From the NCBI RefSeq assembly GCF_940670765.1, contig NZ_CALNVW010000025.1, positions 62,001 to 126,000 of the forward strand: a stretch of DNA of 64,000 nt, given 5' to 3'. The DNA comes from Streptomyces sp. A 4/2. Lineage in GTDB: Bacteria; Actinomycetota; Actinomycetes; Streptomycetales; Streptomycetaceae. The notes below the pieces were generated by a model that saw nothing but the letters and a program-made list of their open reading frames with translations, did no database searches and was not told where the DNA came from. Positions 15,682 through 21,455 of the stretch are shown piece by piece; position 1 is the first letter of the stretch, and the number at the start of each line of letters is the position of its first letter. Both the position numbers and the translations under genes were made by a program.

Positions 15682-16353
15682 GACGGTCGGAGACCGGCGG
15701 TTCCGGGCGGGGGACCGGGCGGGTCTCCGCGCGGGCGGACCGTTCCCGCGGACGGGCCGCGCTGCCGCCGCTGGTCGTACCTCCGGATTTCCACACTCCG
15801 GCAGAGTTATCCACAGGCGGCCTCTCGACCTGGGGACAAGTCGACAGTGCTGGGCGACATGGTCGACAAATCACCCTAGCGACGACACTTCCGTCCACAG
15901 GGCGCCAGGTGGGGCGCTGTCAGCTCAATTCCGTTGATCAACTCTTTAGAGCGAGCAATTCCCACCCGAATGAGTGCGTGGAGTGGGTTTAAGGGGAGAA
16001 CCCTTCGCCCCTCATGAGGCTTTCGGAACGGTCTCGCCCGTGATCCACAGATCTCCCACACAGCCTGTGGATAACATTCCGGAGCTGTGGATTCCTGTGG
16101 ACAAGGGATCCCAAGTCCCGCTCCCCACAAGGGAGGTGGGTCAACGGTCGCGAATGGAATGCCCCATTCCGGGGAATTTCCGCACCGCTATTGACCTCCT
16201 GCGAGCACCCGGTGAAAAGGGATCCCGAAACCGCCGCACGCTTTCCCCCCGCCACGCTCCACCATTCCATAGATAGCGCATCAATTCGGACAAAGTGCCG
16301 CGTGAATGGATAACGAGTCGAGCGCCGGAAGCGGGCACCGGTAGCCTGGTGGG
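15682..16353. other. Long intergenic region with a cluster of DnaA-box-like 9-mers
   Basis: 672 bases without a credible gene between pheA and serS, and more AT-rich than its surroundings from about 15930. It carries TTATCCACA (15807-15815), TGATCCACA (16041-16049), TGTGGATAA (16066-16074) and TGTGGACAA (16096-16104, reverse complement of the Streptomyces consensus TTGTCCACA), plus a degraded TGTGGATTC at 16086-16094. It must also hold the serS promoter. I see no T-box or other known leader. Confidence 0.6.
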
Positions 16354-19571: not shown

Positions 19572-20831
19572 TTGTCACGCCCGGATTCGGACCAGTTGCT
19601 CCCCGACGCGGAGGCCGACGTCCGGCCGTCCGCCGAGGGGATCGCCGCACGGCGCGCGCTGCTCGCCCACCCCGTGGTCCTGCTCGTCGGCATCGTGCTC
19701 GCCTCGCTCAACATGCGGGCGGCGCTGGCCAGCGTGTCGCCCCTGGTCAGCGAGATCAGCTCCACGTTCGGCCTCTCGTCGACGGCGTCGAGCCTGGTGA
19801 CCTCGGTGCCTGTGCTGTTCCTCGGGGTGGGCGCGGCGATCGCCCCCTGGCTGGCCCGCCGCTTCGGTACCGAGGTGGTGCTGTTGTGCGCGCTCGTCCT
19901 GCTCGGCATCGGCATTCTGGTCCGGGTACTGCCGTCGGTGTTCGCGCTGTACGGCGGCGGAGTGCTGGCCGGTACCGCGATAGCCCTGCTCAACGTGTTG
20001 ATGCCGGGGCTGATCAAGCGGGACTTCCCGGACCGGGCGGCGTCGATGACGTCCGTGTACACGGGCGCGATGATCGCCGGGGCCACGCTCTGCGCCGCCG
20101 CCTCGGTACCGCTGGAGAAGGCGTTCGGGAACAGCTGGCAGGCGTCGCTCGCCTTCTGGTCCCTGCTGGCGGCGGTCGCCGCGGTGGCCTGGCTGCCGCA
20201 GGTACTGATCGCCCGCGGCCGTACGGGTCACGAGGTACGCGTCACCCCGGCCGGGCCGCCCCGGAGCGTCTGGCGCTCCGCGCTGGCCTGGCAGGTCACG
20301 CTGTTCATGGGGCTCCAGTCGGTGTGGACGTACGTCCTCATCGCCTGGATGCCGACGATCTTCACGGATCACGGGATGAGCCGGTCGACGGCCGGAGCGA
20401 TCTTCGCGTTCAACAATCTGATCCAGGTCGCGGGCGCGTTCGGCGTCCCCCTGCTGGCGGGCCGTATGCGCAGCCAGCGCCCGCTGGTCGCGCTGGTCAC
20501 CTCGATGGTGGCCGTCGGCTACGCGGGCCTGATGATCGCCCCGGTGTCCGGCGCCTGGCTGTGGTCGGCGGTTCTCGGCATCGGCCAGGGCGGCGGGGTG
20601 GGACTGGCCCTGACCATGATCGTGCTGCGTTCGGGCGACGCACAGACGGCGGCCCGGCTGTCCGGAATGGCACAGACGGTGGGCTACCTGCTCGCGGCGG
20701 CCGGTCCGCTGACGGCGGGCGCGGTGTACCAGGCGACGGGCGACTGGACGCTGCCGATCTCGCTGGTGCTGGGGGTGTGCGCGGCGGCCCTGGTGGTGGG
20801 CCTGTTCGCGGCCCGCGACCGGAAGGTCTAG
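19572..20831 (+). CDS. MFS transporter of the CynX/NimT type
   Basis: A 419-residue, 12-helix major facilitator. The start is taken as TTG 19572 (MSRPDSDQLLPD), with AAAGGGG at 19559-19565 six bases upstream. Features typical of the cyanate/nitroimidazole transporter family are LASLNMRAALASVSPL in helix 1, SSLVTSVPVLFLGVGA, GTAIALLNVLMPGLIKRDFP, the second-half start WQVTLFMGLQSVWTYVLIAWMP, and LGIGQGGGVGLALTMIVLRS. The substrate is unknown; members export or import small anions and drugs. It is paired with the FCD regulator upstream. Confidence 0.88.
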   Translation: MSRPDSDQLLPDAEADVRPSAEGIAARRALLAHPVVLLVGIVLASLNMRAALASVSPLVSEISSTFGLSSTASSLVTSVPVLFLGVGAAIAPWLARRFGTEVVLLCALVLLGIGILVRVLPSVFALYGGGVLAGTAIALLNVLMPGLIKRDFPDRAASMTSVYTGAMIAGATLCAAASVPLEKAFGNSWQASLAFWSLLAAVAAVAWLPQVLIARGRTGHEVRVTPAGPPRSVWRSALAWQVTLFMGLQSVWTYVLIAWMPTIFTDHGMSRSTAGAIFAFNNLIQVAGAFGVPLLAGRMRSQRPLVALVTSMVAVGYAGLMIAPVSGAWLWSAVLGIGQGGGVGLALTMIVLRSGDAQTAARLSGMAQTVGYLLAAAGPLTAGAVYQATGDWTLPISLVLGVCAAALVVGLFAARDRKV

Positions 20832-20849
20832 CCGGGAGCTGCGCGGAAG

Positions 20850-21455
20850 TTGCCGGACGGGATTCATCTCCGTACGGAGGACGTGGCGCGGTACTTCGCG
20901 GTATCCACAGACGCCGTCCACAGCATCGTCAGGCGGCACCGCGAAGAGCTGCAGACCAACGGGCTGACCACTCTGAAAGGCCCTGACCTGCACTCCTTTG
21001 AACTGGTCATTTTGACCAGTTCAAAGGACGGCGCCCCGGAAAGTTATCCACAGGGGCGTGCGCACCTGCGTCTCTACACCCGCAGGACCGTCCTCAACAT
21101 CGCCATGCTGCTGCGTGACAGCGAGGTCGCCCGTCGCGTCCGCACGTACCTTCTCGACGCCGAGGAGTCCCGTCCCGCGGTGGCCGTGTTCGATCCTCGG
21201 TACGACGGGATCGACCGCCGCGTCACCGATCTGGAGTCCGCGATGGGCGAGGTCGGGCCCGTGCTGCGGGAGCTGGGGCCGGTGCTGACCCGCATGTCGC
21301 ACCGGCTGGAGGCGATGGACCGGCGGCTCGACGCCACCAACCGGGTCCTCGGCGCGATGAGCGTCCGTCTCTCCGACGTCATCCAGGACGTCGCGGAGAT
21401 CAAGCGGGCGCTGCCACCGGTTCCCCGTCAGCGGCGTGGCAGCCGGCGGCGCTGA
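20850..21455 (+). CDS. KilA/antirepressor-like DNA-binding protein of unknown role
   Basis: A 201-residue protein, start TTG 20850 (MPDGIHLRTEDVARYF) with only a weak ribosome site. Residues 5-40 look like a helix-turn-helix (LRTEDVARYFAVSTDAVHSIVRRHREEL), followed by a strand-rich part ending RLYTRRTVLNIAMLLRDSEVARRVRTYLLDAEE, a layout I associate with phage antirepressor/KilA-N-type proteins that are widespread single genes in actinomycetes. The C-terminal half (about 115-190) is a predicted coiled coil (VTDLESAMGEVGPVLREL, then LTRMSHRLEAMDRRLDAT). A perfect 33-bp palindrome lies inside its coding sequence at 20995-21027. No phage genes surround it. Confidence 0.7.
   Translation: MPDGIHLRTEDVARYFAVSTDAVHSIVRRHREELQTNGLTTLKGPDLHSFELVILTSSKDGAPESYPQGRAHLRLYTRRTVLNIAMLLRDSEVARRVRTYLLDAEESRPAVAVFDPRYDGIDRRVTDLESAMGEVGPVLRELGPVLTRMSHRLEAMDRRLDATNRVLGAMSVRLSDVIQDVAEIKRALPPVPRQRRGSRRR
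20995..21027. repeat. Perfect 15-bp inverted repeat with 3-base loop inside a coding region
   Basis: CCTTTGAACTGGTCA (20995-21009) and its exact reverse complement (21013-21027) flank TTT. It encodes part of SFELVILTSSKDG. The sequence is strikingly AT-rich for this genome, and 16 bases downstream is a TTATCCACA 9-mer (21044-21052). Confidence 0.9.

Follow-up and report, generated by a model that had tools for sequence, protein, structure and literature searches.

A gene on a Streptomyces-type chromosome carries, within its own reading frame, a perfect palindrome that is very likely to be the cognate operator of the protein the gene encodes. Three points were established by computation: palindromy is found at fixed codons, the sequence of the site has changed with its symmetry kept, and a code relating helix residues to bases held on genes that were not used to derive it. 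Self-recognition is strongly inferred from co-variation; binding itself, autorepression and a link to DnaA are also inferences, as neither binding nor expression data exist.

The palindrome and the gene that contains it

The palindrome lies at 20994-21028 of the window, by which we mean the whole stretch of 64,000 nucleotides that was analysed, positions 62001-126000 of contig C25. It has two 16-bp arms around a 3-nt centre (TCCTTTGAACTGGTCA TTT TGACCAGTTCAAAGGA) and writes the peptide SFELVILTSSKDG in the reading frame 20850-21455. No other perfect palindrome in the 64 kb with a loop of at most 5 nucleotides is as long, the runner-up having arms of 11 bp, and base composition predicts only about 0.001 palindromes of such size per window. 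A preliminary description, made from the sequence alone, had reported a 15-bp exact inverted repeat with a 3-base loop at 20995-21027, AT-rich in a GC-rich genome. Both claims held: the repeat is really one base longer on each side, and its G+C content is 40% against 70.5% for the window. The same description considered such a sequence unlikely by chance in a coding region, which agrees with the expected number but calls for caution, since long palindromes are frequent outside coding sequence in Streptomyces. A palindrome score of at least 10 was reached in 51/109 non-coding 600-nt stretches lying 300-900 nt upstream of the homologues described below, versus 57/109 of the genes. Because the upstream stretches are equally palindrome-rich, our case depends on the fixed position within the coding sequence, the odd centre, the comparison with synonymous shuffles, and co-variation, and not on rarity alone.

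No second copy of the palindrome (30 specified bases, up to 3 mismatches) was found in the 8.3-Mb genome, and its 18-base core occurred at one other genomic place, at 3 mismatches. Across the site the alignment with homologues is mostly ungapped, without an insertion against most of them. An inserted or mobile palindromic element was rejected on the single genomic copy together with this alignment.

Table 1. Positions of the gene, the palindrome and related features in the window
Feature	Position	Strand	Remarks
ORF6N-like protein gene as listed	20850..21455	+	TTG start; 5'-truncated relative to homologues
GTATCCACA, weaker DnaA-like box, codons 18-20	20901..20909	+	In 42/70 SF1 genes, including the window gene
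Codons of predicted second HTH helix, residues 20-29	20907..20936	+	Low-confidence single-sequence model; homologous helix in better ORF6N model, via profile alignment
Codons of residues 24-25 (His-Ser), co-varying with half-site	20919..20924	+	From helix/half-site comparisons
Palindrome, proposed operator of the encoded protein	20994..21028	.	Centre base 21011; same codons palindromic in 89/109 homologues
AGTTATCCACAG (codons SYPQ)	21042..21053	+	DnaA-type box TTATCCACA at 21044-21052; identical in 57/58 SYPQ homologues
Codons of predicted long C-terminal helix, residues 121-187	21210..21410	+	Highest-confidence part of the model; possible coiled coil for oligomerisation

By sequence, the relation of the encoded protein to ORF6N is weak. 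Searched against Pfam, the window protein matched neither KilA-N nor ORF6N at any E-value up to 1, and no Bro-N or KilA-N match was returned for it or for 30 members of its family; ORF6N was matched at E≤0.1 by 11/30 family members (best 1.5e-4). A profile-profile comparison of the family with ORF6N (hhalign) was also weak (probability 16%, E 0.0016, 48 columns). Searches of PHROGs and NCBIfam with the window protein returned only weak or uninformative matches, and a search of the PDB by sequence returned nothing useful. The single-sequence structure model of the window protein was poor (mean pLDDT 59.7). A fold search with an ORF6N model gave no match at E≤0.001, the best being a Ski-like DNA-binding fragment (E 0.1), with MerR/RacA-type domains lower. 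We treat the gene as a divergent ORF6N-like gene on a Streptomyces-type chromosome, the genus being inferred from composition, size and gene order. The label "KilA-like" of the preliminary description held in part, ORF6N being a domain of the same network.

In 71/75 homologous loci examined, the start codon lies 32 codons further upstream, and the window copy is without that part (about 32 N-terminal codons). The listed TTG comes only 18 nt after the stop of the preceding transporter gene, in the same frame (window 20829-20850), whereas in homologue L003 the transporter frame stops 326 nt before the equivalent point. Because of the missing codons and the close transporter stop, we infer that the window copy was 5'-truncated by a deletion of about 300 nt that left the palindrome and the SYPQ box (Table 1) intact. 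It is possible that the truncated copy is inactive. In a decayed-looking homologue, L083, with an in-frame stop 4 codons before the aligned start, the SYPQ box is lost and the palindrome is weaker.

Palindromes and recognition helices in related genes

Matches to the gene were found in 111/295 genomes of the genus, its own genome counted. The weakest and some partial places were left out, so that 110 loci were used; L138 was dropped for its short frame, leaving 109 usable frames. The peptide at the palindrome varies; it is flanked by a conserved HTH-like part on one side and, on the other, by a conserved part with the consensus SYPQ...LYTRRTVLNIAMLLRDS. A palindrome scoring at least 8 was present at the same codons in 89/109 homologues, with an odd-sized centre in 89/89. 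In 58/109 homologues it beat all 60 synonymous-codon shuffles, and it was better than the best palindrome in the other gene parts examined in 89/109 and equal to it in 12/109. Weak palindromes, equalled by more than 3 of the 60 shuffles, were found in 20/109. The genes fall into SF1, of 70 genes, and SF2, of 39, two subfamilies whose palindrome centres lie at nt 161 and nt 149, respectively, of the aligned frame; half-site sequences vary between lineages, with pairing retained. A separate observation was made in SF2, where alignment columns 103-107 hold near-invariant uncommon codons (GCA 37/38, CGT 38/39, CGT 32/38), suggesting a further DNA element in the coding sequence.

The half-site was compared with the residues of the putative recognition helix. 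For this comparison a small bonus was given to the two family-wide centres when the centre was chosen, and L090, which is frameshifted, was excluded from the SF1 tables. Helix classes corresponded to half-site classes: KK with GGGACA, RR or KR with GCGACA, RQ with GTGACA, KS with GGTCCA and HS with TGGTC. Residue 25 predicted half-site base -6 in 65/69 SF1 genes (baseline 26), as K to G in 19/20, R to C in 19/21, Q to T in 17/17 and S to G in 7/7; in SF2 it predicted base -4 in 35/39 (baseline 24). Between the window gene (..VHS..) and its best match, L003 (..IKK.., 68% identity), helix and half-site have changed together, and L004, the sole other HS gene, has TGGTC in common with the window gene. 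With protein distance controlled (partial Mantel), residue 24 ranked second and residue 25 third of the 68 columns in SF1; in SF2, with 58 columns, they ranked sixth and fourth. This ranking was not exclusive to the helix: another column came first in SF1, and other columns were also high. Since the genes share ancestry, counts of this kind are not independent, and only 2-3 tree-based independent pairs on supported branches were available in SF1, none in the wrong direction (p 0.5-1).

Genes of other phyla were reached by scanning genome contigs for TGAACTGGTCA, 1-9 bases and TGACCAGTTCA. The scan gave 13 loci, with a spacing of 7 bases in all, from records named Flavobacteriia, Bacteroides, Bacteroidales, Muribaculaceae, Spirochaetales, Omnitrophota, Fibrobacter, Opitutia and the like. 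In nine loci the palindrome lies within an ORF6N-type frame as ELVT..DQF or ELVKNFDQF; the frames of L066 and L069 are fragments, and in L074 the palindrome is also read in another frame as LNWSQSVTSS, before an ORF6N-like tail. The exact half-site pair had no match in viral contigs, so no viral source was found. Outside an intact ORF6N frame, the same dyad was observed in L068 (782-810), where an ORF6N fragment starts with it, and, with a near-copy directly after it, in L073 (2601-2629).

ORF6N genes fetched irrespective of palindromes, from plasmid records and genomes, showed many different palindromes at the same place, and the motif LRSQ-VTSS is written by palindromes of ORF6N genes. Our first ORF6N set held 64 anchored genes, 11 of them from loci fetched by palindrome; 17 frames without the anchor motif were left out. 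A score of at least 8 was reached by 60 of the 64, all odd-centred (60/60), while 58/64 beat 40 synonymous shuffles and 59/64 beat the rest of their own gene. Without the 11 palindrome-fetched genes, the corresponding numbers were 50/53 for the score, 49/53 for the shuffles and 50/53 for the rest of the gene. Neighbour genes in the ORF6N loci reached a score of 10 in 8/148 cases, versus 60/70 for ORF6N genes.

In the first set, the residue at LYG+10 ranked first of 103 columns and matched base -4 of the half-site (Q to A 26/27, E to G 15/15, R to C 14/14; n=58). Seven or so of the Q rows carry A by the way the loci were found; without the palindrome-fetched loci the code read Q to A 19/19, E to G 14/14 and R to C 14/14. 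Profile alignment makes LYG+10 equivalent to residue 25 of the window protein. On the tree of this set, from which L074, L188, L067 and L174 were left out, the residue changes 20 times and the base 20 times; independent pairs on supported branches numbered 6, 6 and 4 and ran 5:0, 5:0 and 4:0 (sign test 0.06-0.125), which cannot reach 0.05 alone.

The code from the first set was applied to a later set of 60 previously unseen ORF6N loci with 62 frames, of which 51 were usable once 5 without the helix motif and 6 without the anchor had been dropped. A palindrome scoring at least 8 was found in 49/51, odd-centred in 49/49. The code (Gln to A, Glu to G, Arg to C) was right in 43/43 for the left arm and 42/43 for the right arm, against a permutation maximum of 27/43 in 10000; eight genes with K or L at the code position fall outside it. 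The 43 matches are not 43 independent trials, because the later-set genes share ancestry and one order supplied most of them. That order, of Bacteroidota-type genomes, is also the source of much of the first set, and the genes were thus unseen, not unrelated.

In the related domains, 15/24 Bro-N genes and 13/18 KilA-N genes beat 20 whole-gene shuffles for the palindrome, those of KilA-N being mostly even-centred and in FNYxEF-type codons. In two distant actinobacterial matches, L326 and L327, the frame picked by the script, possibly the wrong one, contained no matching element. Two side observations concern ORF6N loci. In L188, L174 and L067, two to four successive similar palindromes, 39-75 bp apart, lie within one ORF6N gene; and L157 and L158, Segatella copri plasmids of 4.1 and 3.0 kb, have as annotated genes only ORF6N and a replication initiation gene.

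These sets bear on the explanation that the palindrome is a single product of chance or of a mutational artefact such as template switching. It would be in keeping with the variability of the segment at the protein level and with the truncation of the window copy. Against it, palindromes occupy the same codons in 89/109 homologues and in 50/53 and 49/51 ORF6N genes, with odd centres and differing sequences, and we regard it as virtually eliminated. Another explanation is that the site is read by another regulator or a related paralogue, with which the encoded protein co-evolves only indirectly. Some genomes do hold several ORF6N genes, and nearby genes can carry similar sites; however, each gene's site matches the helix of its own product (43/43 in the later ORF6N set), and the window genome has no other full-length match to the site of the window gene. 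We consider this highly improbable.

The palindrome might also act as an mRNA hairpin, in attenuation, stability or translational control, rather than as a DNA site. The stem would form in the mRNA, and a hairpin in a coding region could pause ribosomes. Among unpaired positions of the ORF6N, SF1 and SF2 sets together, G.U was seen 36 times, A.C 43 times and other combinations 81 times. By set, G.U versus A.C was 14 vs 16 in ORF6N, 16 vs 10 in SF1 (a slight G.U excess) and 6 vs 17 in SF2 (the reverse). The dyad centre falls on codon position 1 in 51 and position 2 in 11 of 62 ORF6N genes, and on position 3 in the Streptomyces genes. With centres in all three codon positions, there is therefore no common peptide under selection. 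The lack of an overall G.U excess over A.C, together with the centres in all three reading frames, favours DNA over RNA. Furthermore, one-base centres are common, which suits a DNA dyad, and a hairpin leaves no place for co-variation of the half-site with the HTH helix. An RNA role is thus very hard to sustain.

Additional copies of the site were found in a minority of genes. Upstream near-copies of a gene's own site (up to 4 mismatches) occurred in 13/99 ORF6N genes, versus 5/99 for another gene's site; upstream numbers were 1/62 versus 0 in SF1 and, at up to 6 mismatches, 0/39 versus 3 in SF2. Downstream, an own-site copy at up to 6 mismatches was present in 9/39 SF2 genes versus 2/39 controls, about 860-910 nt away (for example in L132, L131 and L143). 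Over whole loci, 45/212 sites had an extra near-copy at up to 7 mismatches, versus 9/212 for a random other site. At +40 to +600 no own-site near-copy was found in SF1 (0/62) or SF2 (0/39), and the window gene has one dyad. Looping cannot be general, because most genes are without a second site nearby.

The window family resembles ORF6N (PF10543), with Bro-N (PF02498) and KilA-N (PF04383), in an HTH region that aligns, though only weakly by profile, in a palindrome at the homologous place of the gene and in the same specificity position of the helix. A palindrome at that place with a helix-linked half-site is a shared property found here and not a published criterion. The two differ in that the window protein has no Pfam match, the dyad centre of the Streptomyces genes is at codon position 3 instead of 1 or 2, and DnaA-type boxes are known here only in the Streptomyces family.

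DnaA-type boxes and proximity to dnaA

The high-affinity DnaA box is TTATCCACA in E. coli and TTGTCCACA in S. coelicolor (PMC4285127). SYPQ is written AGTTATCCACAG in 57/58 Streptomyces SYPQ genes. Its codons AGT, TAT and CCA are otherwise little used in genes of the Streptomyces family, with shares of only 8%, 13% and 7% among the codons for their respective amino acids. SF2 and some SF1 genes have CCTGTGGANAAC, which is GTTNTCCACAGG reversed, at another place and on the other strand; it is present in 42/42 PV[DE]N genes, with the encoded residue being D in some and E in others. A box of the form TTNTCCACA lies near the dyad in 66/70 SF1 and 39/39 SF2 genes.

The dnaA gene is on the same contig as the window gene, about 80 kb away. 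In 36/36 genomes, chosen for few contigs, the gene lies 26-104 kb from dnaA: SF1 is mostly 74-104 kb to one side, and SF2 with RQ-type SF1 mostly 26-41 kb to the other. Plain inheritance alone could explain this proximity. Counted over the genome, TTATCCACA has 18 occurrences, 8 of which are on the contig with dnaA; those in the window are at 15807, 16066, 21044 and 30018, and two of the origin-near boxes are upstream of a seryl-tRNA synthetase gene. Because the proposed operator is beside one or two DnaA-type boxes and the gene is near oriC, expression of the Streptomyces gene is probably tied to DnaA or replication, which is an inference.

These findings could instead mean that the site is replication-related, the gene being a domesticated initiator or a partner of DnaA with an internal site and DnaA boxes, as in lambda O. 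In favour are the boxes near the dyad in 66/70 SF1 and 39/39 SF2 genes and the position near dnaA in the 36/36 chosen genomes; the lambda ori, too, lies inside gene O. Against it, there is one dyad and not iterons, and non-Streptomyces ORF6N genes adjoin a separate replication gene on two small plasmids. We consider a replication site unlikely. This reading is compatible with self-recognition and concerns its purpose.

A probable cognate operator inside its own gene

Self-recognition remains the explanation that we prefer. The encoded protein would have a helix-turn-helix (HTH) and be related to the ORF6N, Bro-N and KilA-N proteins. A dimer of it may read the two half-sites with the second HTH helix, in which residue 25 of the window protein, equivalent to the place of Gln, Glu or Arg in ORF6N, is a putative main determinant of specificity. 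With the site embedded in the codons for the DNA-binding domain, the operator would accompany the gene wherever it goes. Binding in the transcribed region would most likely repress the gene itself, by a roadblock, or by looping where a second copy exists; the upstream own-site copies in a minority of ORF6N genes would permit looping there, and the long predicted C-terminal helix may aid oligomerisation. An intragenic operator would make the gene self-limiting wherever it is moved, a purpose that is inferred.

The preliminary description had offered three roles for the palindrome. Its autoregulatory operator for the protein itself is favoured by co-variation and palindromy, without experimental data on binding or autorepression; its cis-encoded mRNA stem is disfavoured by the absence of an overall G.U excess and by the helix co-variation; and its recombination or conjugation site found no support. 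Its remark that a DNA-binding-like N-terminal part made self-recognition attractive is supported by the half-site following the recognition-helix residues. It had proposed a comparison of homologues for conservation of the palindrome beyond codon constraints, which was run: the amino acids are not kept, the palindrome is at the same codons in most homologues, and the half-site tracks the helix residues. The case that it named as refuting, the same amino acids without a palindrome, was not seen among the homologues, although some palindromes are weak (20/109).

Several known systems are comparable in part. Phage lambda O has its recognition sites in its own coding sequence, and the specificities of O and ori vary together among lambdoid phages. 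It is alike as a DNA-binding protein with recognition sites inside its own gene; it differs in its several iterons and initiator role, whereas here one dyad lies in the codons of the DNA-binding domain, in many phyla, with no initiator role shown. Internal operators in transcribed coding sequence, repressing with looping, are known as lac O2 and gal OI, but these are located in the regulated enzyme gene and not in the repressor's gene. Rickettsia palindromic elements are palindromic DNA in protein genes, read in frame, that occur as inserted repeats in unrelated genes; unlike them, the element described here is no insertion against most homologues and is a single copy in its genome. HK022 Roi, a phage DNA-binding protein of the wider network, is reported to bind within its own gene. 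As a precedent it was rejected, since the palindromes in roi had arms of only 6 bp.

Phages, plasmids and bacterial chromosomes often encode ORF6N, Bro-N or KilA-N proteins, and for most of these the DNA target is unknown. A search of the open-access literature on the three domains gave no description of an intragenic self-operator. Among these papers, "palindromic" in PMC6591296 refers to CRISPR, PMC4257102 deals with pneumococcal Ant and Bro gene pairs, and PMC10111431 with a domain-swapping Bro network. Subscription papers and preprints were largely outside this search, and we therefore do not claim absence from print.

A bolder reading extends to the whole ORF6N/Bro-N/KilA-N superfamily, and we lean towards it by a small margin. 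Here the codons for the DNA-binding domain would contain the protein's own operator, in any one of the three frames, the motifs LRSQ-VTSS, ELVTxxDQF and FNYxEF would partly be translations of operators, the residue-to-base code would reveal targets, and the Streptomyces unit, joined to DnaA boxes near oriC, would be a replication-linked self-limiting switch.

If each gene does hold its own cognate site, the targets of these proteins would be readable from sequence alone, and the recognition code would be directly testable. The double constraint of a protein domain and an operator on one stretch of DNA would explain the conserved protein motifs. For Streptomyces, it would point to an unrecognised DnaA-linked locus near oriC.
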